Shown: positions 1,740 through 24,061 of the stretch, piece after piece | Layout: each line of letters opens with the position of its first letter | How positions within the stretch are numbered: position 1 is the stretch's first letter | Source: Gracilariopsis chorda | Lineage: Eukaryota > Rhodophyta > Florideophyceae > Gracilariales > Gracilariaceae | Direction: 5' to 3' | Assembly: GCA_003194525.1 (NCBI GenBank) | Contig: NBIV01000127.1 | Location: forward strand, 124,001 to 188,000 | Length of the DNA stretch: 64,000 nucleotides | Made by a program: the position numbers and the translations under genes | Notes under the pieces: model-generated | Databases searched by the model: none | What the model was told of the DNA's origin: nothing | Seen by the model: only the letters and a program-made list of their open reading frames with translations

Positions 1740-4700
1740 ATCAAGAACTCTATGGACAGTTGGAAGCAGCAACTGAACTTGATCAAAAGGAGAAAATCGA
1801 TCATATGCGAGATCAAAAGATTCTTCAGTTAGACTCACTCTCCACCGATGAATTCCAAAATCCGGGCACAAGTGAAGCCTTTTATGATGGCCAATCTCGA
1901 TACACATGCCCCCTGAGTTCCTCAAAACGGACAAACTTTCGTCAATCAAAAAGCAGACGAAATGTTACCTGTTGGAATTTTTGTAAATGTAGAGCAGTGC
2001 GTGTGCACATACCCTCTAGGCGATATGGATCATAAATGATTCAATACTTACGTGGTATCGGGTCAACTCAGGTATGAGTGGACCATCGGAAATACTGGCT
2101 GAAATTCGATATGAATTTTAATTGTTTTTTTTTGGCACCTTTGTGGGTGATTTCTGTGGCTTGTAGATCAGATGGACGCGCGAAAAGCGTACGGATATTA
2201 TTCATGGCTCGCATGATTCAAAAGTTTCATGTTTCGTTGTGGCCAGCAGTGCCGCTAAGTGACACAAGAGTGTGGACAACAAGTGTGGCATACTACAGCA
2301 GTAGTATTCTTAGTTTCATGTGACCAAACAGTACTTAAGGGAGGACGGCCTTGCCGCTTCACACCGAAGTAAAGACAAGCTGTGACTTGCCTCTGATTTT
2401 ACCGCCTGCACGAACTGACCAACTCCTGCTGAGGTTTCACCGCGTTCGGTCTCGGTGTACTCATGTGCAAAGTATCACCAAGGACCGCAGATCTGTCTTA
2501 CTCCATGGGTTCGCCTAGTGTTCAATATTTTTTAGCGTTTTGGTTACTTTTTATGGCGGAACAGATAGACTTTCGACTCAGCATTGAGTTTTGTCGTGCT
2601 GGCTGAGCCAGCCCCACTCCTCACCGCTAGGCCTCTTTCGGCTTTCCTCACGACCCGCAGGGTTGTACCTTTCTTTTTGGTTTCTACTATTTTTCCCTTC
2701 TCCCCTTTCTGGAATCTCCGTGGACCGGAACCCCGCTCACACGGACCTGTGCACTAGGTTGAACAGCTGGTAACCCGATTTTCGTTGTCACCTCCGTCAG
2801 TATAGCAGGAAGACCCCTCGGTTTTACACACGAACACCTTGTGGTACGGAGGGCCCTGTCGCTGCGCCTACCTCACAAGAGAGCCAGGCTGCGAACTCCC
2901 TGGGAAGATTTTCCGCCTAGGGATATTGCTCCACAGTATACTCGTACATGTCATTGCCGAATGCAGGCGCTGCAAGGATCTCACCAGCAATGCCACCAAG
3001 CGTGTGCAATATTTACAACGCAGCGGCTGGAAGGATCAGAACAAGCCTTTGAAACGCATTCTGTATGAAATGTGCCGACAGCTCGAAGAATCCAGTGATT
3101 CTGACGCGTTCGAAAGCGTGCAAAACATTCTTTGCTTGCAATGGCGAGGCAGATGGTAATGCATACGACGAAACCTCTGATCCTTCCATACAAGTCTTTT
3201 CGTCGAGTTTTGGAAGGCAAAATGCCGACCTCTCTCTCTCGAATTCACATGAGGATTTTTAAATGGGGGTAGTAATCATTTCTGCCGTAGTGCTCCTCCC
3301 AAGCACCAGAACGAGAAAGGACCAGACAATTCCTCCACGGGGCTACCTCGAATCACTCGTCTTTTTACGAGAAAGCAAGCACGATAAAGTTCCCAAACAT
3401 CTCCTTAGAACCTTGTTGACATTCAAAATGTGAAGGCAAGTTCATTCGACAGAAAACTACGCAAATTTCAGGGCGCATGTCTAGACTCTGACGCACGACA
3501 ATCCATAATAAAAAAACAACAATCCCAAGCGTGATGTAAACTTGTAGGCATTCCATTCAAGCTGGACCACTCCAACAAAGCTTTTAAATTTGGAGATGGC
3601 ATATAATTCAGCCGTGGAACCATGCAAGTACGCATTCCAATCCCTGGCAACACTTTTCTTCCACTTGAGATTGAAGTCGTCGACGCCTCTGTACCTCTTC
3701 TTATTGCACTCGATATCTTGGACTTACACGCTCTTGTACCTGACAACGTGGACAACATGTTACTCAACAAGAAGTTCAATTGGTCGATACCAATCACGTT
3801 GAAATTCGGTCATATGTACTTAGAATGGGACTTCTCTGAGATTATTTACACAAAGAGTGAACTCCGAAAAATGCATATGCACTTCTACAATCCATGCACA
3901 AACAAACTTTTCACCTTGAATTTCCAAGCAAAGCCAGGAAATGTCACACCGAAGACCAGAATAATACTCATCGAGCGTATCTCAAAATCATGTGCCACTG
4001 GCCAACATTTTAAAACCTCGGCCACAGTCTTTCCAAGTATCCATTCCAAGCAAAATAATATTCAACAGTGAAATTGCTTTGAGTGTTACATTGTTTGGAT
4101 TAACTGCCAGTTGTACACGTTGTTGATACACAAACACACTTCCGTTCTACAATATTCTTAAATAGTCAAACCACAGAAGCAATCGGCTATGCATTTTTCA
4201 GTTGTTAGGAAACATTATAAACCGTCTATCCAGACACGATGAGACTGGATAAAGACAGACAATTCACATCGGCTCGATGGAAAGAACTGGCAAGCATGGC
4301 TGGAATCACCTTACATTTCTCAGGAGTGGAAAGTCATAAATCTGTTGGAGCTGGTGAATGATACCATGAACCCTTATGTCGTATCTACCAAAAGATTCGA
4401 CACAGCGAGCCCGATGTCCGCATCACCTTAGCCCTTCGACTTGCAGTCATGGCTATGAACGATACAATGCATCCCAAAGAATTTGTGCCTTCACTACTCG
4501 TCTATGGAGTTATTCATCGCTTTCTACCGTTGGCACAGAACTTCCAAATCATGAGGAGCGAATGAGAGGTCTTACAATCACGCGCTCTAAGATGGAAACA
4601 ATCACTTCGGAACTTCGTTTGGGTCGTAAAATGTTTGCGTGCATTCCATCTGCCACATTGACAAACTTGAAGGTTGGACAAGCAGTTCTAGTCTATCGAA

Positions 4701-5474
4701 AATATTTGAAGCCAATAAAATGGACTAGAATGTGCAAAATTGTAAGGATTGATAACAAATAAGCCTTAATGAATCGTAATGGAAACACGGTCCAACTATT
4801 GCACAAATCAATCTTTTCCATCGTGACAAACTAGTGGACAGCCTTCATCCTTGTCTACAACCAATACTTCTTAGTGATTCTGAACTCTATGATGTTCAAA
4901 TTACTGAAGTGTTAGGTCTTTCCTACCACCGTCGGAACCGACCAGCATTCAGTAAAGCCAAACGAAAAGAGCGGACAGGATTAGTATCCAGCGGAACGTA
5001 GAAAGTCATTAGAAAAGACGAAGTGTTAGAAGACTCCAATATTCTTCTGGGCACTTTGTGCTCGCCATCAAAAATCAAGAAACTGATGAGAAGAAACTCA
5101 AACCCAGATTTGTCGCCCAAGGGCAAAAAGATCCAGAAAAAGCGTTTCTAGTGCGCAACTCGCCTAATCTAAGACAATATTCAACCCGAGTTCTCGGTAT
5201 AGTTGCCACTATTTATTGGTAGAGATTACGGAACACAGACATTCGTCAACCATAATTGCCATCCGCACAGACGCTCATGCTTAAAGCATACCTGAAGCCT
5301 CAAAAAGAACTGGAACTTCCAGCAGAAATTTTGCTCGAAATTCTCCGCCCTTTTTATAGGCTTTCAGGCTCTGAAGACTATTGGTTCAGAATAATAACCA
5401 CACATCTGAAAGAGGACTTAAGAATGAAACCGACCAAAGGACATCTGTCACTGTTTATGAAAGACGAACACTCA
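1740..5474 (+). mobile_element. Fossil Ty1/copia-like retrotransposon, left part
   Basis: This is a decayed copia-like element read on the plus strand. A gag-like stretch with a damaged zinc-knuckle look lies near 1760-2035. An aspartic-protease region is near 3440-3850, an integrase zinc region near 3860-4060, an integrase core near 4240-4760 and the first half of reverse transcriptase at 4920-5474. The order (protease, integrase, RT) is that of Ty1/copia. It is broken many times and is clearly old. A degenerate LTR lies inside it at about 2319-2936. Harbinger-1 interrupts it at 5474 and the coding region resumes at 16189. Weak gag-like sequence may reach back to about 800. No LTRs of its own are recognised. 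Confidence 0.75.
2319..2936 (+). mobile_element. Degenerate solo LTR of the 19 kb / 52 kb family
   Basis: This stretch resembles the solo LTRs at 19152-19947 and 52519-53350 in the same order: a pyrimidine-rich middle, a segment with CCCGCTCAC then CGGA, an ACCCGATT block followed by CACCTCC, and an end reading ATTGCTCCACA where the better copy has ATTGCACCACA. It is shorter and more diverged than the other two. The left edge is approximate and I see no target duplication. It lies within the copia-like fossil and is itself a fossil. Confidence 0.5.
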
Positions 5475-5496
5475 GGCGGTGTCTAAACAAGCGTGA
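5472..5496 (+). repeat. Harbinger-1 left terminal inverted repeat with TCA target duplication
   Basis: TCA at 5472-5474 is followed by 22 bases that recur, inverted and identical, at the right end. Immediately inside is a short imperfect palindrome (AGCGTGACGTTCACGCT), a likely subterminal transposase binding site by analogy. The GG[CG]-type first bases match the usual start of PIF/Harbinger ends. Confidence 0.85.
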
Positions 5497-5616
5497 CGTT
5501 CACGCTCAAAACAAGTGAATACTTTACAATTTTTAAAAAAAGCGGCTGTAAATCGAAGTAAGAGAGACCCTTATTGACCCCTATTCAAACACAGGTCCAA
5601 ACAGCGGTCCAGTCTG

Positions 5617-6966
5617 TTGACAGATCCCATCTCACATCTTCCAACCATGATCACTCTAGTTGAAAACAGCCATTCTAATACTTGGGCAAACGAATCACCT
5701 TTTTCCGCATGCATCCTATCTTCATATCCGTTATTCTACATGGCACACGTCGAAGATCAGCGCTTAATCACGCTGGATTACACACTGCAAAAACTCATTT
5801 CCCGTAGAAAGTTTTCTACAAAATCGCACGTTCCACCATCCTTAACTCGTCAAGGCATCACTTTCGAGTCCATTACCAACTTTTTGAGCGACAACACGTT
5901 CAAGCGTAACTATCGCATGAGCCGTTAATCGTTTTACAGACTGGTGCGCTTGCTCTCTCCTCTCATATAAAAAATTGAAGAGATGGGAAGACGATCTGGA
6001 CGTCCAACCATTTCTGTGGAAATGCGACTAGGCATAACTTTGAGTAGACTTGCAGGTGGGTCGTTTGATACGATACATCAATTGTTCCGAACGCAACGTT
6101 CGAATGTGTATAGTGTTTTCAAAGAAGCGTGCAACGCATTGTCTAACATACTAACCCTTCCAGGAATTCCAGACCAGTTGGAAGCACTAGAAGAACTTTC
6201 AAACGGATTCAAACTATCTAGGTCACAAGTCAGCCCATTCACTGGCTGCATCGGAGCAATTGATGGAATATCAATTGAGATAAAGCCACCTAAGTTCAAC
6301 GCTCCGAAGTATTGGTGCCGAAAGGATTACTACGCAATACCTGTTCAGGCAGTGGTAGACTCTGGGGGCAGATTTTTATTTGCTTCTGCAAAATGCGTTG
6401 GGTCTACTCATTACTCTTTGGCGTATGCCTCTACAAAACTTTCGGAGTATCTGAATAGCCGGAACCTCCCAGGAGAATTTTGGATTGTTGGGGATGAAGC
6501 ATATGTCTGTACTGATAATCTTATTACACCAATACCGGCTTCACAGGTTTCTTATTGGTATGAGAAATCGTTTAACTTTTTCTTGTCTTCCTTGCGCATT
6601 CACGTTGAGCAGGCTTTTGGAAGGTTAGTTGCAAGATGGAGGATATTGCAGAGTCGTCTGAACTATTCGGTGAGTATAAGCGCAAGCCTTATTATATTAT
6701 GCATGAAGCTTCAGAATTTTTGCATCGATGAAGGCGAAGAAAAGCTGCGGTCGTTTTCTGTACGAGAAATCGAAGACTTTGACAAGGATGTTCTACACTG
6801 GTATGGTATCTGTAAGGAAAGCATTGGTATGATGGCATCTACCGAAGATGAAAGGCCTTCTAGTTTACTGGTGGCACGGTCTACTATGAAACGGAGCGAA
6901 ATGGTCGAAATCGTGCGACGCCGAAATCTTCGCCGCCCAGAAGTGACAGGAGTACCGGAGCTTTGA
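5617..6966 (+). pseudogene. PIF/Harbinger DDE transposase (DDE_Tnp_4 type), Harbinger-1
   Basis: The long open part (5983-6966, 327 codons) has the family blocks in order: GCIGAIDGI with the first catalytic Asp, a WCRKDYYAI block, QAVVDSGGRFLFA, FWIVGDEAY with the second Asp, and RIHVEQAFGRLVARW with the Glu. Upstream in the same frame, 5617-5928 encodes the N-terminal part ending NYRMSR, and after a TAA come SFYRLVRLL residues typical of the family. Two in-frame TAA codons (about 5926 and 5968) separate this from the long ORF, so translation would either start at the ATG at 5983 or the gene is dead. It lies just inside the left end of the element, facing the accessory gene. The catalytic triad itself is intact. 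Confidence 0.9.
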
Positions 6967-7124
6967 TGAGCATTGATAAGAAAATTGGTGTTGGTTGAAT
7001 GCTCAGGTTCGTATGCATCACTCAACACTACTTCCGTTTTGCTATCTGACAGAAATTGACTTCATTTGTCTTTGCGCTCCCCGAACAGTGTAATGGTCTG
7101 CCATGTATACAAGAGCACCCCAGC

Positions 7125-7335
7125 GAGTCTCTTCGAACCGCTTTTTTCCCAGATTACTTGGATCCTCACATGCAAGAACTAAAGCGCCATCGAATTCTTC
7201 GGTTTCAGGGAGAAGGATAGCCACAAAGACTTCAGCTGTGAAGCACCCCGCAAAGCCACTAATGTTGATTGCTACGCCGGGTCTGCGCATGGTTTCCTCG
7301 GCTGGACTTCTGGATCTCCACTTTCCTCCATGAGG
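7125..7335 (+). repeat. Repeated NOT1 linker module, copy A
   Basis: About 211 bp strongly resembling 10776-10987. Both copies read in the same phase as a Ser/Thr/Pro-rich linker; compare LMLIATPGLRM here with LLMIATPCPRL in copy B, and KTSAVKHPAKP with TTSAVEHPTKP. Copy A is immediately upstream of, and in frame with, the first recognisable NOT1 exon, but a TGA at 7331-7333 separates them. A short preceding stretch (7072-7103, peptide LPEQCNGLP) also resembles NOT1 linker sequence at 9695-9727 (LSEQRNGLP). Confidence 0.8.
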
Positions 7336-10300
7336 TCCAGCCAGCTTCAATGGGTACGGTTCCGGACACCATCCCAATCAGCAAAATAACAAGTCCCCTG
7401 TTTCCGGAGAAGTTGAACTTTCAACCCAAGAAGTACTGGAGCGATTTAACTCTATTTATCCTCAACTTGTTTCGGAAGTGGAGCTCGTGACCATGGTGAC
7501 TTCTTGTTCAAGCGGGAATTGTGAGTATGTGAAAAAAAGACCCGACAACATTACGGACTGCGCTATCTATAAGTTTAGATATGCAAATCCTGCCTGATTT
7601 ACTGGCAGGTAACATGTCGGTTGACTTCTCTCTGGAACTCGCCATGCTGGCATATCAAGAAAACGTGCTCAAGTTTGGAAGTTTGTTGATGGAGTTTCTT
7701 ACCTCTCAAGGAGCTCAGGCTGCATCATCCGTTGTTGTTTGCATTGCGCACAAAGCTCTTCTTGAAGCCAGCCCATCCAGACAGCTGTCAGTTGATGCTG
7801 TATGCATCATTCTTCGATGTCTTATTAATTCGGTTAGACGCTCCCACGCGAACCAAGGCAAGGAATTTGGTGAAGATGTTCAGGACGTTTACAAAGTGTT
7901 CGGTCGACTTGATCCGAGAATATCTGACTTTGCTCCTTCATCTGATACTGGGAATGCTAAAGTTGGTGTGGGAAACGAAATTCCCACTGTAGCACCATCA
8001 AATCAGTCCGACGCCGCTTCAACTGTGGCGGTGATGTTACTTTTAACAACACCTGGTTCAAGCGGTGCTTCGACTGCATTCCTTCCGTCTATAGAGAAAT
8101 AAACCGATGTTTTATTTCAGACGCTGTACCAAGGTGAATTTTTGCCAGATCAGGCTGATGACATTCTGCGACGTATGAAAGCGTCCAACGTTGAACAAGA
8201 TATTCAGGTATACAATTGTATGCTGCATACGCTTTTTGACGAGTTTAGATTCTTCAAAGATTATCCTGATCGTCAGCTGAAGATAACTGGGGTTGTGTTT
8301 GGATCTATAATTCAGTATGGTCTTATTGCGGGCGGGCTACTCGGCCTTGCAGTTCGTTGTGTGCTAGATGCCCTAAGAACCGTCGATCCTGCTCCACATC
8401 CAGTTGGGAGACTCACTGAGTTTGGCTTATGCGCTTTAGAACGCTTTGAAGCTCCTTGCTATAAGTGGCCTCAGTTCTGTTCTCATATGCTGGAGCTGCC
8501 GAGGCTAGAAGAAATTGCACCAGGGCTTATCGGTGAGGTTCAACGAGCTCCCGATATCAATGGAGCTGTGATTCCCAGTGCTGTTGAAAAGAAGATAGGC
8601 CTTGCAGAAATGGACAGGCAAACAATTATTGAACCAATCCACTCAACTGAAGGAGGAGTTCCCACTGTGTCACCCTTCCGAAATCCTGCAGCAGATGCTG
8701 ATGCTGTTGGAAAACTTGTTGAATGTCCTCCTCGTTCTGCGAGCATTACTCCGCTGAAACGAAGAAGTGTTTCTTCTACGCCATTGAGGTCATCTCCAAC
8801 AGGGGGAGTTGATGGCCCACTTGGACTCCCTCCTTTGGATTTATCGAACCTTCTTGGTCTATCTGCTGATGAAGCAAGTCTAGTAATTGTACCCAACGAA
8901 ATCACCAAGGACAAAATGAAGTGCGTTTTCAACAACTTGTCTCAAGCAATGGTGGACGAGAAAGTAATGGAGATGATAGCGATACTCAAGCCCGAATTCT
9001 TCGATTTCTTTGCGGTCTACATTGTTGTGAAACGCGCGTCATTGGAAGCGAACTTCCATAATCTCTACGTCGAATTATTGGAGAGGATGTCGGAAAAGAC
9101 TATGTCTTTGCTTCCTCTAGTTTGCCGAACGACCTACAAGCGAGTTAAAGTTTTGCTGGCTGTTGATAGGTCAAAAACTTCGGCAGACCGGGGAATGTTG
9201 AAGAGCCTTGGAAGTTGGATACGGTCCCTTACGCTGGCCAGAAACAAACCTATTCTCCGTCGTGAACTAAATCTGAAAGAAGCCCTTCTAAACGCGTACT
9301 CGAACGAAAGATTTACAAGAGTGATTCCTTTGGTTGCAAAAGTATTAGAAGCATGTCGAGATTCCAAGATCTTTAAGCCTACTAATCTGCGGGTACGAGG
9401 CGTGCTAAGCTTAATGAAAGAAATATACTCCCTCGCAGATTTGAAGTTGAACATGAAGTGCGAATTGCAGATAATTTCAAAGCAGATTGGTATTGACTTG
9501 AATAAAATTGTGCCATCAGATCTTCTGAGGTCACGACCCACTCCTGACAAGACTCAGAATCCAGATTTCGCGACGAATAAAACAAGTGCGTCACCACCAC
9601 AAAAATCTCCAACAGCCACTGCATCGTCTTCTCCCGAAGTCAGGCGTAGGTACACTGAAGAAGTCGTTGGCTCAAGATCTGCTGCACCCATCTTTACGCT
9701 CTCCGAACAGCGCAACGGTCTGCCGTCTTTGTCGAAGCCACTGCCTGCTGGCCCAAGTGCTTCTGGGGGTCGTTTGAACATGAACCATAATCTTCTTTCA
9801 GCCAAGATAGGTGCACTAGCGCTTGAATCTGTCGGGAAAATCTCAAATATACTGCAGGGCGCATCGATTTCTTCCAGTATGGTAGGGTACTCGCAAGGTC
9901 AGAGGAATCCATTACACCTGCAGGACACACAGAGTACAATGGGTATCGTGATGGTGCCAATAAGTTCATCTCATTGGACTGAGAGTTCTGTTGGTGCTCC
10001 GGAAATGCTTGTACCAAACCTTTCGCAGCTGGTGACTGTCAGTCCTTCATTGGGCCTGCTGGAGTCTTCTCTGAACTTGAAACGACTGATTCCAATAGCG
10101 ATTGGTCACGCAATTAGGAAAATCATTCAACCTGTCGTCGAGAAGAGTTGCGCTATCGCATACTTGACGAAGAAGGAGCTCACATCAAAGGACGTTGCCA
10201 ATGAGCATGATATTGGCAAAGTCAGGAGAGCAGCAATGCAAATGGTGCAACAGCTAGCAGGATCTTTGGATTTGGTGACGTCCAAAAAACCATTAAGGGT

Positions 10301-13246
10301 ATATATGGGAAACCGGCTTTGTACGGTTTTGAGTCCCAGTGTCGTTGCATACCAGAACATGATAGAACAAACAGCACAAGTGATTTGCAATGGTAACCTT
10401 GACATTGGTTGCGCCCTTATCGAGCGTCATGCGAAGAAAAAGCAGCACGGGACTTAAACGAAAAGATTGGGTCTGCGTTTGCCAACAGACGGCAATCAAG
10501 TTCTGCGTACACCTATGGTATGATCCCGGGACCAGACTTGTATTCAGTGTACAATGAATTCTCGAGAACTCATTGGACGGCTGTAGGATCACAATTTGTT
10601 ACACCGGCATCTACTTCCCAGCCATATCCTACGGCCAGTCAACCCCCGTTATCTAACTCTGCCGATTTTACGCCAGGGGTTACCGGTTTTCATCAATCCA
10701 GCTCTGTCTCTTCAGACCATTTCATACCTGAGCAAAGATCTGGTACTGCTAATCAGGACATGAAAGCGTCTCATCGATTCTCTTCGAGTCGCCCCGCTCC
10801 AAGAGTACTTGGCTCCTCACAAACAAGAACCGAAGTGTCGTCGAATCTTTCGGTTTCAGAAAGAAGGGTACCAGTGACGACTTCAGCTGTGGAGCACCCC
10901 ACAAAGCCACTATTGATGATTGCTACTCCGTGTCCGCGCTTGGCTCCCTCTTCGGCTCTTTCGGCTCTCCTCTTTCGAGGAGGATTCTAATATGTATCGT
11001 GAAGCTTATGTTCTCATTTTGGAAAGTCTTCGTGAATCTTGTCGGAGATTGTCGAAGGAGCTTGCTACCTGGTTGGCGTTTTCTGAAGAACGAAGAAAGC
11101 TCAATCTAGAATGTATTTTGGCACTCCTCAGACCTGGCTCTCTACTCAGCAAGACCAGCTATGATGAGATTCTTGCAAAAGCTATAGACAATGCTAGAAA
11201 CGTGACAGCACTGGATTTCGCTTGTTCCATTGTACGGAAAGCAGTTATTCAGGAGCCATTGGCTACCGCAGGTGACTTTTATCTAACACTTGAAGGTATT
11301 TTGAAAGTCGCACGGACGCAAAACACCGCAAATACGTCTATGACCGCAGATGAACTACTCGCACTCGTAGACGCTGCATGAACCGTCGTTCAAAAAGCAG
11401 ACGCAACACACGGATCGGGTAGTACAAACACTGAGGCCAACACGACTTCAACAAGACATTTAAAAGACCCAGAAGATATCGATCTCATGGGTTCAAGGAA
11501 AGTAGTCGCGCAAGTTCTTCTTGAGTGGCACCGAGTCTTGACTGCTGATGTTAATTGATAAATTCTAGACCAAGCGGTTATGAACTTCATGGAACAGGCA
11601 CGTGCAAGTCTCTTGGCGACAACTGACACCGTACAGAAGTTCTTCCAAGTAGCTGTGGAGATCGTGACCACAGCGACTTCTCTGCTTCTGGAGTCTATAG
11701 AGAGCGAATCAGGAATATCAACTGATATTATTGAGGCCCCCTACACCTCAGTTGAGAATCTGATATGTATGCTGAGCACACTCTGTCATATGGAAAAAGT
11801 TGGATCCGCTTCTAAGAAAATCAAGGGGGTGCATTTACTCTGCCATTTCTACGTCACTGTTGCAAAGGATATGCTAAAGCGATGCAGCTAAGGGATCTGA
11901 GGGCACATTCTCATATACTAACTGGTATAATGGCTCGGTTTTCAGTTGGCTCGATTTTGAAGGAACGGAGCGGAACAGATGACTTTGAACCGACTGTTGA
12001 TCAGTTCTCTATAGCGTTCTTCCATAAGCTTCAGGGCATTTCTTCGAAGGCAGAAGCTATAGAGTTCCTAGATGACAAGGAAGACGGTCTGTTCCGATGG
12101 GTACGTGATCTTGGAAGCCTAACACTTGAAGATGTAGAAGTCAATCTTGACAGTCTTTCCGTTCAAGGAGGATTAGTAGGCGTCCTAAGCTTATTTTCGC
12201 CGTCAAGGATACCCCCGTTTGCTTTCTACTGGCTACAACTCCTAGCAAACAAAGAATTCTTCCCAAGTCTACTTTCTGTTAAGAGCGTGAATGGTGGGCC
12301 TTTGTTTCGGCATTTGCTTCTTTCGTTTCTTCAGTTCATCTCTGGATATCTGAAAAACTCTACTGAACCGCTCTCAATGGTGGTTCGAACGCTTTACAAT
12401 GGGTTTCTGAGAGTGTTGCTAGTTGTGGTTCATGACTTTCCGGAGTTCTTGTGCGCATATCACCTGGACTTTTGCAATGTTATACCTAGTAGCTGCGTTC
12501 AGCTTCGTAATTTGGTTCTGTCGTCGTTTCCGAAACAAATGCGCCTTCGTGATCCGTTCGCCCCTGATCTGAACGTGAAGAGACTACCGAAAATGGTGAA
12601 TCCTCCCTTAATACTATCGAATTTTGTGACTCCGTTACAGGGTAGTGGCATGAAAGGGGTGATTGATACGTACTTGAAATCGAGTGGAAGGTTCAGTGGG
12701 CAAGGGATGTCACTTAATCTTGTGAAGTACATCCGCTTCACTGGTGACAAGGGACAGACCAGGTACAATCTTACCGTACTCAATTCTTTTATCGTGTATC
12801 TGTCCCAAAGTGCTACTTCCGGTTCCGGTGACGGTGATATCTTGAACAGCTCTTCTACGTATATCATTCGTTTCTTTAGTTTTCAACTCGACTTCGAGGT
12901 GCAAACACATCTTTTCAATGCACTTACAAACCAACTGCGTTTCCCCAACAGTCACACTATGTACTTCAGGAATGTGATCCTCATGTTATTCCGCGAATAT
13001 AGTATCGAGTGGGTGAAGGAAGAGATTGCGAAAGTGCTGGTCGAGAGGCTAATTGCGAACAGACTACCACCGTGGGGACTACTAACTACGTTTGTTGAGC
13101 TGCTGAAGAATCCTGATTACAACTTTTGGAACTACTCGTTCTTGACTTGTGCGCCTGAAAATGAGGACCAGTTTCAGAATGTTTCAAAGCATTCCAGGGC
13201 GCCTTCATTTCAGAATAGACGCCAATCGCTGGTGTCTGTGAAGTAG
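7334..13246 (+). pseudogene. NOT1/CNOT1-like CCR4-NOT scaffold, degenerate and N-terminally truncated copy
   Basis: NOT1 is the scaffold of the CCR4-NOT deadenylase complex. Domains appear in the right order: the TTP-binding-like region (8121-8545, motif YNCMLHTLFDEFRFF), the MIF4G/CAF1-binding region (8890-9530, NNLSQAMVDEKV and LTLARNKPILRRELN), DUF3819 (10045-10570), and the C-terminal NOT superfamily domain (about 11720-13230, DFPEFLCAYHLDFCNVIP, PWGLLTTFVELLKNP). Two introns fit: 7521-7578 (GTGAGT...TTTAG) and 8031-8120 (GTGATG...TTCAG). The N-terminal HEAT half of usual NOT1 is not seen. The frame shifts near 10430-10440 (at an A5 run), near 10975 and near 11885-11990. In-frame stops lie at 11379 and about 11553. 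The gene sits entirely inside Harbinger-1, between its two genes. It is either a captured copy decaying in place or a gene damaged by assembly indels; the identity as NOT1 is secure. Confidence 0.88.
10776..10987 (+). repeat. Repeated NOT1 linker module, copy B
   Basis: Second copy of the module at 7125-7335, located inside the NOT1-like gene between the DUF3819 region and the C-terminal NOT domain. The reading frame used upstream ends at 10990, and the next domain continues in the following frame from about 10974 (FEEDSNMYREAY). The frame change therefore coincides with the right edge of the module. Confidence 0.8.
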
Positions 13247-14312
13247 GGCGGACAACCATGGCTAGACAGAACTAGTATTAGCGTAAAGCATTTCTCATTG
13301 TATACATTGTGGAAGGCCTACCCTATAGCCCTAACTATCAACAACGTGGGACATAATTACCAAGCACTAGAATAGGCAAGATATTCCGGAAGAAATGCCA
13401 ACTGCAAGTTATCATTTTCGTACGTGGTGACTGTTCTTTACCACGATGTGGACACTATTGGTACAGGAAGCATTGATATCTCTACTTCCCAGCCAAACAT
13501 TGGACCTCATTACGGATTTGATCCACATCATCATTCACTGAGCAGTAAAACAGTATTATTCGCCGATCTTGTTATGCTATACTCCCATTTCGCCCCAAGA
13601 GTCACTCGTCGAGTGTAACGCTATTGTTCATGCTGACCATTCCATGGAACATCAGAATCTCTGCAGCGATTCCGGGCTCTCTCCATAAAGGAGGTATGAT
13701 CTTCTTATTCCCGGATGGACTTCTGCATATCATCTGGGAGGCTACCTATGGCTCTTTCAGCAGTTCAAGAGATAAAGTCCTGTTCAGGTTCAATGAACGT
13801 AGCCAACGTGTTTAGCAAAGCCGCCTTAAAAGAAATCAATAAACCAAAAGCAAAGTTAGTATGTCTGTATCTCACTGACTCCCATGTACCTTCAACTTCT
13901 TTTTCCTGTTTCTCCAAGCGACTTGTAATCTTCGAGACGACACAGCGACCAACTCGAACCGTGTAGGTAGATGAAAGAACACCATCAGATTCATCGATTC
14001 CCAACTTGGGTTCTGCGGCAGAAAGAGTGGCTGAATAACGCATGGCGACAACTCCAGTGAGGCTCTCCAACAAAATACAAGAAGCCGAAAAACGTGGCTT
14101 ACGTTCCTCTCTTGGATCGCGTCAAACCTAGCGAAACGAAATCGAACCCGGGATAGATAGAATGCAAGCAGTAGCAGAACCAAAAAATGCGTGGCCACGA
14201 CAACCACCTCCCCAAATACCACCCAAACCACCATCAACGACAATATCTCCAACAACACCACATACAAAAGCCCTTAATGATAACAAAAGTAAATCAAAAG
14301 GCAGTAGAGAAA
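13247..14312. other. About 1.1 kb inside Harbinger-1 with no recognised gene
   Basis: The stretch lies between the convergent ends of the NOT1-like cargo and the Myb-like accessory gene. Several 60-130 codon ORFs occur on both strands, but none shows a recognisable motif. It may hold the 3' untranslated parts of both genes. Confidence 0.5.
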
Positions 14313-15857
14313 CTAAATAGCATTGTTCTCCGCATCAGGTCTGGACTTTTCAACCATCTTTTTAAATCTCTTCAGCAGATGGCTATGGTTTTGTTGTAGT
14401 AATTCCACCAAATCCTCATCATGCAAATCTCGAGCTCTTTTGATCTGCATGGAGCTCTCTGCAAGATACGTTGCTAGTTTGACACGATGATCAAATTCGT
14501 CCCTCTGCTTTTCTTCATCTGACTTCTGTGGCCCTGCATTCCTGTCACGTTCTATGGCAAGATGCTCCGGCAAAATTGCCATCTGTTCTTCTGAAATCTT
14601 ATTCGATTGAACCACTCCTTTCGATATTTCACTAAGATCCTTATAGCTTCCACTGTTTCGTGTCCCAGAGCTTCTCCTTCGCTCCACCGCAGCCTGATTC
14701 TGTTGTCCACTCCCTAAGCAACCCTCTTCAATACCTCCTTCATCCTCGTCGATGAGCTTCGAGGTTGTTGAGAGCAGATCTTCCGCCTAGTTTGCGGTAC
14801 CGATGCGCGATACGCAAAAAAAGACATAAGCCCGTTTCGAATCGGCAGTCAGTTCACCTTTCGGGGTCATCCGTAGAAAGTTGCAAATGTTACTTGGATC
14901 GTTCTGCCCTGACGTAGACCAGTTTTCCCTAGCTATAGTAACCATCTTCTTCACACTGTTGTACTGCTTTTTTAACACGGAAGCGCTACGGTCGCATAGA
15001 GGTCTCATATTTGAGTCTACCTCATCCAATCTTACAGCACAACTGTGCTTCGAATCCACGTTCTTATCATTGAATCGATTTGCAATAACTAACCAGGACG
15101 AATCCTGCGTCACGTTAGCCTCCAACTCTCTTCGATTCAATGTCTTACCGATAGCCTTATTGAGGGCATTTTTCGCAAGTTCGTCGTCCCGTAAAATTAC
15201 TATAAGCCTCGCAAATTCATTGAGACTGAAGCTTGGTTCGCTATGTTCGACTTCTTTATCCACCGTGAGCGGATATCCAGAGCCTGGGTCTGCCGCTTTG
15301 TAATCAACAATAAGTTTCATAACCACTTCGCGGTCAGTAAATTGAAGCATATTAACAAACTCACCTACATCAGGCAAACTAGAAAGAGTAGCACAACGAC
15401 TGACTGCGTCCCTTTCCCACTCAAGAAAATCTTTGAGTTCATCGTTGGCTGAAAGACAATCCCCGATACTGGTATCCTCGAAACTTTTAGTGTGAAAATA
15501 CAACACTAATCTCGAAAGAAGTTCAGTGCGAGTTCGATTACGAATGCGAAGCTTAAACGGCTTTGAAATCGCTTGCAAATCTTTGACGGTCTTCTCCAAC
15601 AGAAATGAGTAGAAAAAGGCCATTCTCGTATGTTCTCGAAAAGCGGGTTCATTGTATGGAGAGACAGTAATCTGGGAGGACGAAGCCAAAGCGGTTACAT
15701 CTTTAGAACCCGGTGCGGTACTGGTGGTTGCATTTCGGTTTAGTGGTGTCTCTTGTCGTGTTGTACATTTTGCGTTTCCCGGAAGGGTTGATGGGTGTTT
15801 GCGTGGACTCCTGCGAATGGAAGAGATGGGAGCGGGGTTAGGACATTTGTCTGACAT
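14313..15857 (-). pseudogene. Myb/SANT-like accessory protein of Harbinger-1
   Basis: PIF/Harbinger elements encode a Myb/SANT-like partner that binds the element ends and brings in the transposase. The frame starts at the ATG at 15857 (MSDKCP) and runs 357 codons to a TAG at 14787-14789. The same frame is open again to 14313 and adds a charged coiled-coil tail (LVELLQQNHSHLLKRFKKMVEK). The centre has a SANT-like block (SFSLNEFARLIVILRD, SSWLVIANRFND, NMRPLCDRSASVLKKQYNSV, ARENWSTSGQNDPSNICNFL). The accessory genes of the other Harbingers here also end in coiled coils, so the tail probably belongs and the TAG is a single break. The gene lies next to the right TIR and faces the transposase. 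Confidence 0.7.
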
Positions 15858-15907
15858 GATGGTTGTACGAGAAACAAAGATAAGGTAGGGGTGCGCGAAA
15901 AAACACA

Positions 15908-16163
15908 AAGCGCTTGCCGTGGGAGATTATAGATTGTTTATTGTACAACCAAATGGCGGACAGAACAGGTCCGTGGGGCAGACCGAGGGTCTTCAAATTT
16001 GAATGATTGGTTTACGATCGACCAAGTGGCTTGCCCTCGTTTGGGAAGCTTTTCTGCTTACAGAGAAGAGGACTTTAGGAAATTCACATGGCTTTCACGG
16101 TCAATACGGTTCCAGGTTGATCCTGCCAATCAAAAGGCCTATATAGGCGTGCACGGGCTTCGC
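15908..16163. other. Right subterminal region of Harbinger-1
   Basis: About 250 bp between the accessory gene start and the right TIR, holding no ORF of interest. It should contain the accessory gene promoter. A TATATAGG-like string lies at about 16140-16147. Confidence 0.4.
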
Positions 16164-16188
16164 TCACGCTTGTTTAGACACCGCCTCA
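16164..16188 (-). repeat. Harbinger-1 right terminal inverted repeat with TCA target duplication
   Basis: The reverse complement of 16164-16185 is identical to 5475-5496, and TCA follows at 16186-16188. Just inside, GCGTGAGCGAAGCCCGTGC gives a second imperfect inverted motif in the same place as at the left end. Confidence 0.85.
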
Positions 16189-22448: not shown

Positions 22449-24061
22449 TTGAAAGAAGAACTCTGGACTTCGACACAAAGGATGAGTCTGCCCTTTTGGA
22501 TGATAGGTAGAAGGCTTGAGACGACTTTAGAGAAAAGAAACCAGCATATAATGCACTGAAGTACGATGGACGAGCAGGATATTCTTCCCATACAGTAGGT
22601 AGTTGGTGATGCAAGGAGGCACCTAGAGTGTGTACGTAATCGACGAAATCAGCGTCTTAGGAACATAGACTGCTTGAAGACATCCTGCACAACCTGTTAG
22701 GTAGGCTGTATGCCCTGAATACCGGCATGTATTCTCATATCATCCGAAGTCAGGAGAGAGAATCGCTATCAAATGGTTGGCGACCAACATCTTGCAACAC
22801 ATCGGAGTGGAATCCTTCCGTCGAAGCTATTTCGATGCGCGATTTTCTAAGAAGAAGAGGACGTTCATTTTACATATGAACCCATAAAACATTAAGTGTG
22901 GTTGGACCCGGAGCGAGTAGCTACTGACAAGCTTTACATGAACCTGAATGCCCTCAACCTACAACAAAGCAATCGGTTTGAGATGGTATCTACCAATGCA
23001 ATATTGCTTGTCAACGTGCCGTTGCAATTGGGCTGGGGATCTGGAGGTTATTGAAGTCTTCTCATGGGTCCACCATGAAACTGGAATGTGGAAGAAGTGG
23101 TGCTTAGGGAAATCTGGAAGTACTAGTAGTAGTAGATCAACGGTGGAGGCCCGTCCATGTGTAGAAGTTTTGCCATGGATAGGGCCGGGAGTATAGATGT
23201 GTGAAAGAGGTGCATGGGTTTGGGGAAGGGCAAGAAAAATGGTTCAAGTTCATTGAGGGATGGAGTCGCTTGCTTATGCTTCGCGTGGTTTTCTGAATAT
23301 TTTAGCTTCGTACAAAAGTCAAATGTTATTGCCAAAAATCACTATGTGCAAACAGTGTCTTTAGATGCCTTAGAAAATATCATGCTGCCTAAGCCCTGAA
23401 TGAACGTAGTGAGCTGCCGAAGGTCTTTAAGTAATAAATAGCATGATTCTGTGCCGCCTCAGGAAATAGCTTCACAGAATAGTTGTTCTTGTTCACTCTC
23501 TGACAGCGTATTGCACTAGAAGTTAGACGCAAGTCACGCGGCCGAGCCATGGATAGGTGCGTAGGATAAGGGCTTCGTTTGTATAAGAGGCATAGCTTTC
23601 ACATCTGTAGTTGCGCTTCTGCTTTCTCTTTCAATACCTGTGATCAATACGCCCCTTCTAACGGTTTGTAAGTGCTAAAGAGTTATCAGAGTAGTGGCTA
23701 GCGTTCCGTGGGAGCGTCGTGAAGATCTGACCAGGATTGTCGTGAGCCAACAGTCCTCCAGACCAATCCTGTCCAACCTGGATGCTGAATAATGACATTC
23801 ATCACCAGGCATCTTTCGATTCGGCACATTTCTAATTGTGCCAAACTTGTGCCGAATCCATTTCCCAATTTTGTCCAAATTGGTACGTAAAACCGGAAGG
23901 CAAATTTCACAATACAAACTGTAACGAACATGAATTGGCGCCAAAAATAGGCTCATTTAAGCTCAAGGACAGCCCCTAAAGACACACCAAGCCAATACAC
24001 ACACGAACGTGATACGAAATCTGCACTTCCGCCATCATCTCTGCTTGAAGTTACTCCCAAA
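22449..24061. other. No recognised gene
   Basis: About 1.6 kb of short ORFs with no motif. An inverted repeat (ATTCGGCACA, then TGTGCCGAAT about 20 bases on) lies near 23819-23858. The right part may be the left flank of the hAT-like element that follows. Confidence 0.4.

Follow-up and report, generated by a model that had tools for sequence, protein, structure and literature searches.

NOT1 DNA carried by a PIF/Harbinger transposon family of the red alga Gracilariopsis chorda: evidence for capture in two steps

Structure of the element

The window, a stretch of 64,000 nucleotides of Gracilariopsis chorda DNA, contains a whole PIF/Harbinger element of 10,711 base pairs (bp) on the forward strand (5475..16185), which carries a large part of NOT1, the scaffold gene of the CCR4-NOT complex. 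The element is bounded by perfect 22-bp terminal inverted repeats. The left repeat (5475..5496, plus strand) has the sequence GGCGGTGTCTAAACAAGCGTGA, and the right repeat (16164..16185, minus strand) is the exact reverse complement of GGCGGTGTCTAAACAAGCGTGA. A target-site duplication, TCA, is found on the left (5472..5474) and on the right (16186..16188). Flanks of 200 + 200 bp joined over one TCA aligned without a break at 40 of 40 scored places (93 candidates), with 83-86% identity. Because the joined flanks align uninterrupted to all scored places, the 10.7 kb represent a clean insertion in a high-copy repeat. The single insertion proposed in an initial annotation of the window is thus borne out by the ends, the duplication and the unbroken relatives of the target. 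The same annotation described the interrupted target as a copia fossil. Its continuity across the insertion was confirmed, while the label remains that of the annotation: no Pfam family was recognised in the flanking open reading frames tested. The target repeat recurs every ~6.1 kb along C673, C520, C312, C1017, C1058 and C1040, which resembles tandem arrays or may be an assembly effect.

Two Harbinger genes lie near the ends. The transposase frame has a broken N-terminal part (5679..5970, plus strand; TAA at 5926-5928 and 5968-5970), followed by a catalytic frame of 331 codons (5971..6966, plus strand) with a match to DDE_Tnp_4 (PF13359; E 8e-27, 94 bits against a cut-off of 24.8). The frame contains GAIDG, VGDEAY and HVEQAFG, which are presumably the catalytic motifs. 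Among 101 proteins found in a search with this transposase, none from outside this genome exceeded 50% identity. The second gene (14313..15926, minus strand) comprises 379 codons, a stop at 14787-14789 and a further 157 codons. It is 41% identical to an intact gene of 531 amino acids in the same position of another Harbinger element (C74) and also aligns with its counterpart in a third subfamily. This partner gene is conserved among the three Harbinger subfamilies. The second gene (ORF1) of PIF/Harbinger elements codes for a Myb/SANT-like DNA-binding protein. For the partner gene, the Pfam search gave no family name and no Myb match; weak matches to DUF3012 and Maf were dismissed as chance. 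The two Harbinger genes named in the initial annotation are present, the N-terminal transposase frame being broken here. The IS5-like DDE transposase, the short inverted ends and the 3-bp target duplication place the element in PIF/Harbinger. The TAA/TTA (TWA) target preference is typical of this superfamily but not defining, and is absent: the duplications are TCA or TGA.

NOT1 DNA fills the interval between the two genes. Small rearranged pieces come first (7068-7504), all on the plus strand: a remnant of the left edge of a first capture (7068..7102; coordinates 5121-5155 of the resident NOT1 locus, hereafter host), a further piece of that capture (7109..7484; host 6192-6568) and a templated filler matching host 7417-7436 (7485..7504), located at the junction of a second capture. 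The second, younger segment (7503..10979, plus strand; host 2934-6411) is 94.5% identical to the resident gene and contains the HEAT, TTP-binding, CAF1-binding and DUF3819 domains. The first, older segment (10973..14109, plus strand; host 6728-9864) is 91.6% identical to the resident locus. Its connector/ARM and Not1 domains extend to the stop (13244-13246), beyond which lies 3' flank. Positions 13247-14109 are captured DNA from downstream of NOT1. They include a remnant of the neighbouring gene, which is convergent with NOT1 in the resident arrangement; its final 162 codons are represented at 13624..14109 (minus strand). The initial annotation had recorded about 6 kb of NOT1 with four domains. 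More than four are present: seven NOT1 Pfam families were detected within 7533-13246 (best E 2e-94), namely CNOT1_HEAT, TTP_bind, CAF1_bind, DUF3819, ARM_Cnot1 and NOT1_connector on one stretch, and Not1. Six in-frame stops and two frameshifts interrupt the NOT1 frame. Transposase family, ends, 3-bp duplication and NOT1 families together support the interpretation of a PIF/Harbinger element with captured NOT1.

Resident gene and element family

The resident NOT1 gene lies at C40 with an uninterrupted frame of 2394 codons and the best domain scores in the genome. Host coordinates refer to the sequence of this locus, with the NOT1 frame at 1818-9002; the converging frame has 344 codons. Genome-wide, 19 matches to the Not1 domain and 17 to the CAF1-binding domain were obtained, and the next longest frames reach at most 936 codons. 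The database proteins closest to residues 380-1100 of C40 NOT1 are NOT1 proteins of full or nearly full length; two show 94% and 86% identity, and those of Gracilaria domingensis and Agarophyton chilense 84% and 83%. The NOT1 of the window is hence not the only copy of the genome. Two small contigs also carry NOT1-like sequence (C843, 1739-8556; C782, 10869-17667) with frame breaks and, where it aligns, 67-70% identity to the resident gene. Both show identical match coordinates to the host NOT1 and were excluded from the selection, frame and tree counts. A database protein of G. chorda with 435 amino acids (P0223), annotated as "CCR4-NOT transcription complex subunit 1", matches the copy in the C10 element (C10:601626-625751) with 100% identity. 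This is a warning for annotation, as the public entry matches a transposon copy.

The 22-mer GGCGGTGTCTAAACAAGCGTGA has 53 matches at up to three mismatches in the 91.3-Mb genome, compared to none for a control in reversed order. Twenty-four of these matches make up 12 end-bounded elements: C127 (the window element), C197, C563, C103, C156, C100, C48, C91, C245, C236, C10 and C45. The other 29 were not assembled into elements, and the partial copies C409 and C486 are not counted among the 12. All 12 inverted pairs enclose NOT1 sequence, at unrelated sites, and all 12 elements retain transposase sequence, often with stops. Identical 3-bp duplications flank eight elements (TCA in four, TGA in four). 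Comparison of the 400-bp flanks of all 12 elements revealed no similarity between different elements. The elements C197 (10,712 bp) and C563 (10,711 bp) repeat the part order of the window element in unrelated flanks. Therefore, the joining of its two ends is not an assembly accident, as far as sequence tells. Further insertions enlarge the spans of C10 (24 kb), C45 (29 kb) and C245 (12.8 kb); C10 and C45 were read without their middle parts. Fourteen single-end loci were compared with the window element. One is an internal deletion derivative (C13), C84 aligns in NOT1, C148 in the transposase, eight share only an end, and C18, C27 and C106 gave no alignment. C409 differs from C563 at one of 1903 compared sites, and the two may be one insertion assembled twice. 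The alternatives of a one-off passenger and a family, left open initially, are resolved in favour of a family with at least 12 end-bounded copies plus fragments.

Origin and age of the captured DNA

The retained parts of the host locus differ between the elements. C245 and C91 contain one nearly continuous piece, host 5108 to ~9860, with 79-83% identity and lacking ~360 bp near 8610-8969. In C45, the right part of this piece is preserved with 82-85% identity. Two pieces, host ~5108-5222 and host 5803-9864, are found in C103 and C156, the larger one with 91-92% identity. The same pieces occur in C48 at 86-88%, and C100 retains host 6192-9864 at 90%. An extra piece, host 2934 to ~6408 with 94-95% identity, is present in C127, C197, C563, C10 and C236, where it separates host 6568 from host 6728 within the older piece. 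It is also present in two partial copies, C486 and C409. C236 retains more of the old left piece than the other young elements and looks like an intermediate.

The junctions of the extra piece are found in all five young elements, with point differences. On the left, TGGAGC is shared by host 6563-6568 and 7411-7416, filler continues to host 7436, and the piece from host 2934 follows with CT shared. On the right, host 6405-6408 and host 6728-6731 both read TTTC. The microhomologies hence span 2-6 bp, and the filler comprises ~20-25 bp from host 7411-7436. Short homologies and templated filler are the usual trace of break repair with template switching.

Two captures from a single locus, differing in age, are evident from the shared breakpoints. 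The first took up 4.8 kb of genomic DNA, comprising the 3' part of NOT1, intergenic DNA and the end of the convergent gene; the second added a further 3.5 kb of NOT1 within the earlier piece. The first capture runs 862 bases beyond the NOT1 stop, and the remnant of the convergent gene (last 162 of 344 codons) is present in 11 of the 12 elements, being absent from C236. Capture via messenger RNA was ruled out: beyond the NOT1 stop, the captured stretch extends into the end of an oppositely oriented gene, and the first capture thus involved DNA.

To assess the timing, amino-acid differences between the host and its nearest relative, P0002, were used wherever outgroups polarise the branch. Host-branch sites are informative since copies older than the split should show the ancestral state there. 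The second-capture copies (majority of five) match the host at 27 of 28 P0002-branch and 8 of 10 host-branch sites. In the older parts, agreement at host-branch sites is 6/11 for the 3' segment of the young elements, 8/11 for C100, 5/11 for C48/C84 and 7/13 for the oldest copies (C245/C91/C45). The latter agree at 19 of 28 P0002-branch sites; eight of the remaining sites resemble neither host nor P0002. Both captures seem to postdate the split from P0002, the second one being later, on small numbers of sites. Trees including the resident NOT1, as proposed initially, agree with this timing: the host branch is longer for the older (0.032) than for the younger segment (0.0087), with low basal support. 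The six young copies have private branches of ~1.6-2.2% and shared branches of 0.1-0.2%, a pattern that indicates a burst.

Selection on cargo and transposase

Substitutions were divided into shared ones, which arose mostly in lineages still transposing, and private ones, mostly from after insertion. The reference state for nonsynonymous and synonymous changes (N/S) was the host for NOT1 and the majority for the transposase. Repeated mutations were kept in the counts, and expected ratios were derived from the mutation spectrum. The transposase serves as an internal control for selection on the cargo. Its catalytic frame (12 copies) gave a shared N/S of 65/53 = 1.23 against 2.81 expected (p 1.3e-5), compared to 3.16 for private changes. 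The 3' segment of NOT1 (13 copies) gave a shared N/S of 225/93 = 2.42 against 2.58 expected (p 0.62). For the second segment (six copies, without C409, which is near-identical to C563), the shared N/S was 85/28 = 3.04 against 2.53 expected (p 0.47). The contrast between transposase and 3' segment is significant (Fisher p 0.003). Eleven stop sites are shared in the 3' segment, including one in six copies and one in seven, and one stop of the second segment is common to every copy compared. None of 14 copies has an intact NOT1 frame, with 1 to 12 in-frame stops each. NOT1 changes look neutral, while the catalytic frame of the transposase is under purifying selection; this contrast identifies the cargo as a decaying passenger.

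The TAA codon at 5968-5970 of the transposase is shared by eight of the 12 elements; three have a sense codon and C45 has a gap. As eight share a stop in the N-terminal part, many copies probably moved with a transposase supplied in trans or translated from a start further downstream.

A second cargo lineage

A second Harbinger subfamily has the ends GGGCCGTTCTAAACAAGCCTGA, with 35 genome matches at up to three mismatches and none in the control. Its transposase is 50% identical to that of the window element. Part of MOT1/BTAF1 lies downstream of this transposase, in the same slot as NOT1. The copy at 90.6-99.1 kb of C10 shows DUF3535 and SNF2 matches, and its MOT1 frame is broken into pieces. 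The best solved-structure matches are "helicase-like" chains of 1847-1897 residues, taken here to be fungal Mot1. The resident MOT1 on C9 has an open frame of 1884 codons. A 3.65-kb probe from the C10 copy detected MOT1 sequence at 18 loci besides C9, with identities of 78 to 98%, compared to 92% for C9. Among the matches listed, at least 11 of these 18 adjoin a transposase match by their coordinates. A 945-bp stretch that does not originate from C9 interrupts MOT1 in young copies and is missing in C273, C165, C2 and C130. C124, which matches only this insert, was excluded from the locus count; its position 22692-23647 is the best separate match (90%) to the insert. The element at C74 belongs to the same subfamily. 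Its transposase and partner frames are open, TCA flanks it on each side and MOT1 is absent; over 5.4 kb it is 99.87% identical to the element at C24 (C24:395200-401200, C74:25500-32000). Open frames, intact duplication and high identity indicate that the second subfamily moved recently. As this slot holds a different cargo in each of the two subfamilies, the capture mechanism can be tested.

Proposed mechanism and alternative explanations

Very probably, a PIF/Harbinger family took up DNA of the NOT1 locus on two successive occasions and dispersed this NOT1 cargo, a decaying passenger, by transposition. A Harbinger copy would have acquired a piece of the locus, as DNA, between its two convergent genes. 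A later copy would have gained the further 3.5 kb inside this piece, and the composite elements would have gone on transposing with their decaying cargo. The capture may have taken place during repair of a transposon break by template switching, the second one guided by the homology already captured. Many copies would have moved in trans or by a shortened transposase. The donor locus, successive intermediates and junctions within one genome form a stepwise record of the uptake of a large gene by a cut-and-paste element.

A tentative extension of this mechanism, held with slightly more doubt than confidence, is a capture ratchet: captured host-gene homology would return a broken element to the same gene, later repair would copy more of it, and the interval between the two Harbinger genes would act as a general cargo slot (NOT1, MOT1). 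For a random site in 91 Mb, the chance of a second capture from the same 7.2-kb gene is ~8 in 100,000, and the second capture ran through microhomology switches within the NOT1 locus.

Several results weigh against the two-step account. The 3-bp flanks differ between left and right in four of the 12 elements (C563, C48, C91 and C245). The trees place C236 and C100 inconsistently, with basal support of 51 and 25. Exchange between NOT1 copies is likely, and exchange of copies with the host gene may have occurred. The N-terminal transposase fragment alone shows no constraint (23 N and 4 S shared). In the 3' segment of NOT1 there is a slight difference between shared and private N/S (Fisher p 0.04); it is not taken as selection, because both ratios fit neutrality. 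The repair mechanism itself is read from the junctions alone.

The first capture might have arisen by fusion, if two Harbinger copies, one on either side of the NOT1 3' end, were mobilised as a unit and lost their inner ends. Tandem insertion followed by re-mobilisation is described for Pack-TYPE acquisition (PMC8903248). The captured stretch, one collinear genomic piece between a transposase half and a partner-gene half, would suit such an origin. The second capture does not fit it, with filler and microhomology inside a pre-existing piece, and the 12 elements contain no extra inner ends at up to three mismatches, although no search for decayed ends was made. Fusion is thus considered unlikely. 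Far less probable is an artefact, in which duplicated blocks or collapsed reads rather than transposed elements account for the copies; this is hardly credible. The near-identity of C409 and C563 and the splitting of the C10, C45 and C245 copies by other insertions would be compatible with it. Matching duplications in eight elements, dissimilar flanks in all 12, inner breakpoints identical across elements and the uninterrupted relatives of the target contradict it.

Two further explanations assign a function to the cargo. Captured NOT1 and MOT1 could yield antisense or small RNAs that affect silencing or the resident genes, and be retained for this reason. The partner gene is oriented towards the NOT1 3' end, so that read-through would be antisense, fragments of large regulators occur in two subfamilies, and an RNA function lies outside what neutral codon evolution tests. 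However, the retained pieces vary much among the copies and are full of indels, and this role appears quite improbable. A protein function, such as a dominant-negative scaffold protecting transposon transcripts, is rated as very improbable. Five elements did assemble a near-complete NOT1, which runs from host residue 373 to the C-terminus apart from a gap, and the 435-amino-acid piece in C10 has a protein annotation. Against these points stand the stops common to six and to seven copies, the stop in every second-segment copy, the neutral shared N/S and the lack of any intact frame among the 14 copies. A functional full NOT1 scaffold was rejected on shared stops, frameshifts and neutral N/S, while a short fragment protein could conceivably be made. 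The two-step capture of a passenger thus remains the preferred explanation.

Comparison with known gene-carrying elements

Gene capture by PIF/Harbinger elements has already been reported in grapevine (PMC2528002), Caenorhabditis elegans (PMC2572040) and maize and rice (PMC8903248). The initial view of such a capture as unusual was therefore overstated, although the precedents (Pifvine-3, Turmoil-1 and Pack-PIFs) all involve smaller fragments. No report of such capture in a red alga was found in the titles and abstracts of the open papers searched.

Pifvine-3 comprises PIF elements with transposase, ORF1 and host exons and introns, sometimes common to several copies (PMC2528002). All 12 elements described here share this type, a host gene within a transposase-bearing PIF element in several copies. 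The extra region of Pifvine-3 extends to at most 3.5 kb in the 5' part (PMC2528002), whereas here 4.8 kb and then ~7 kb lie between the genes. One gene taken in two dated steps, the test of neutral against constrained evolution and the red algal host are further differences. Turmoil-1 is a Harbinger element with two captured coding fragments, reported not to be under purifying selection (PMC2572040). In contrast, its fragments of 205 bp and 131 bp derive from two genes and lie inside long inverted repeats, with one full-length copy (PMC2572040). Pack-PIF and Pack-TYPE elements of maize and rice likewise moved gene fragments between PIF ends (PMC8903248). Pack-TYPE elements are defined as lacking a transposase gene, and the PIF examples considered here carry 58-163 bp of gene sequence (PMC8903248), whereas all 12 elements of G. 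chorda retain transposase sequence. Pack-MULEs and gene-carrying CACTA elements resemble the present family in their transduplicated, mostly decaying gene fragments, but belong to other transposase superfamilies (PMC2528002). The phenomenon is hence of a known kind. Added here are the size, a second capture from the same gene, two cargo lineages, the selection contrast and the occurrence in a red alga.

Other inserts in the Harbinger subfamilies

The C24 and C74 elements contain an open endonuclease/reverse transcriptase frame of ~1010 codons directly after the transposase. This long interspersed nuclear element (LINE) was rejected as a third cargo, as the same LINE occurs elsewhere with 98-99% identity. 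Eight of the copies elsewhere are nearly full length, two of them inside the MOT1 elements C318 and C171. The frame in C24 and C74 thus belongs to a LINE that is nested in the element and travelled with it. A candidate third host gene, within the C369 element, was rejected as well; the 800 bp tested are a dispersed repeat with 54 matches. This repeat recurs four times at ~9.5-kb spacing in C218 (86.5-116 kb), possibly as a tandem array. In the C101 element of the third subfamily, ~1.1 kb separate the transposase match from the open partner frame, perhaps the cargo-free state. An open frame of 168 codons lies within this interval (C101:23804-24310).

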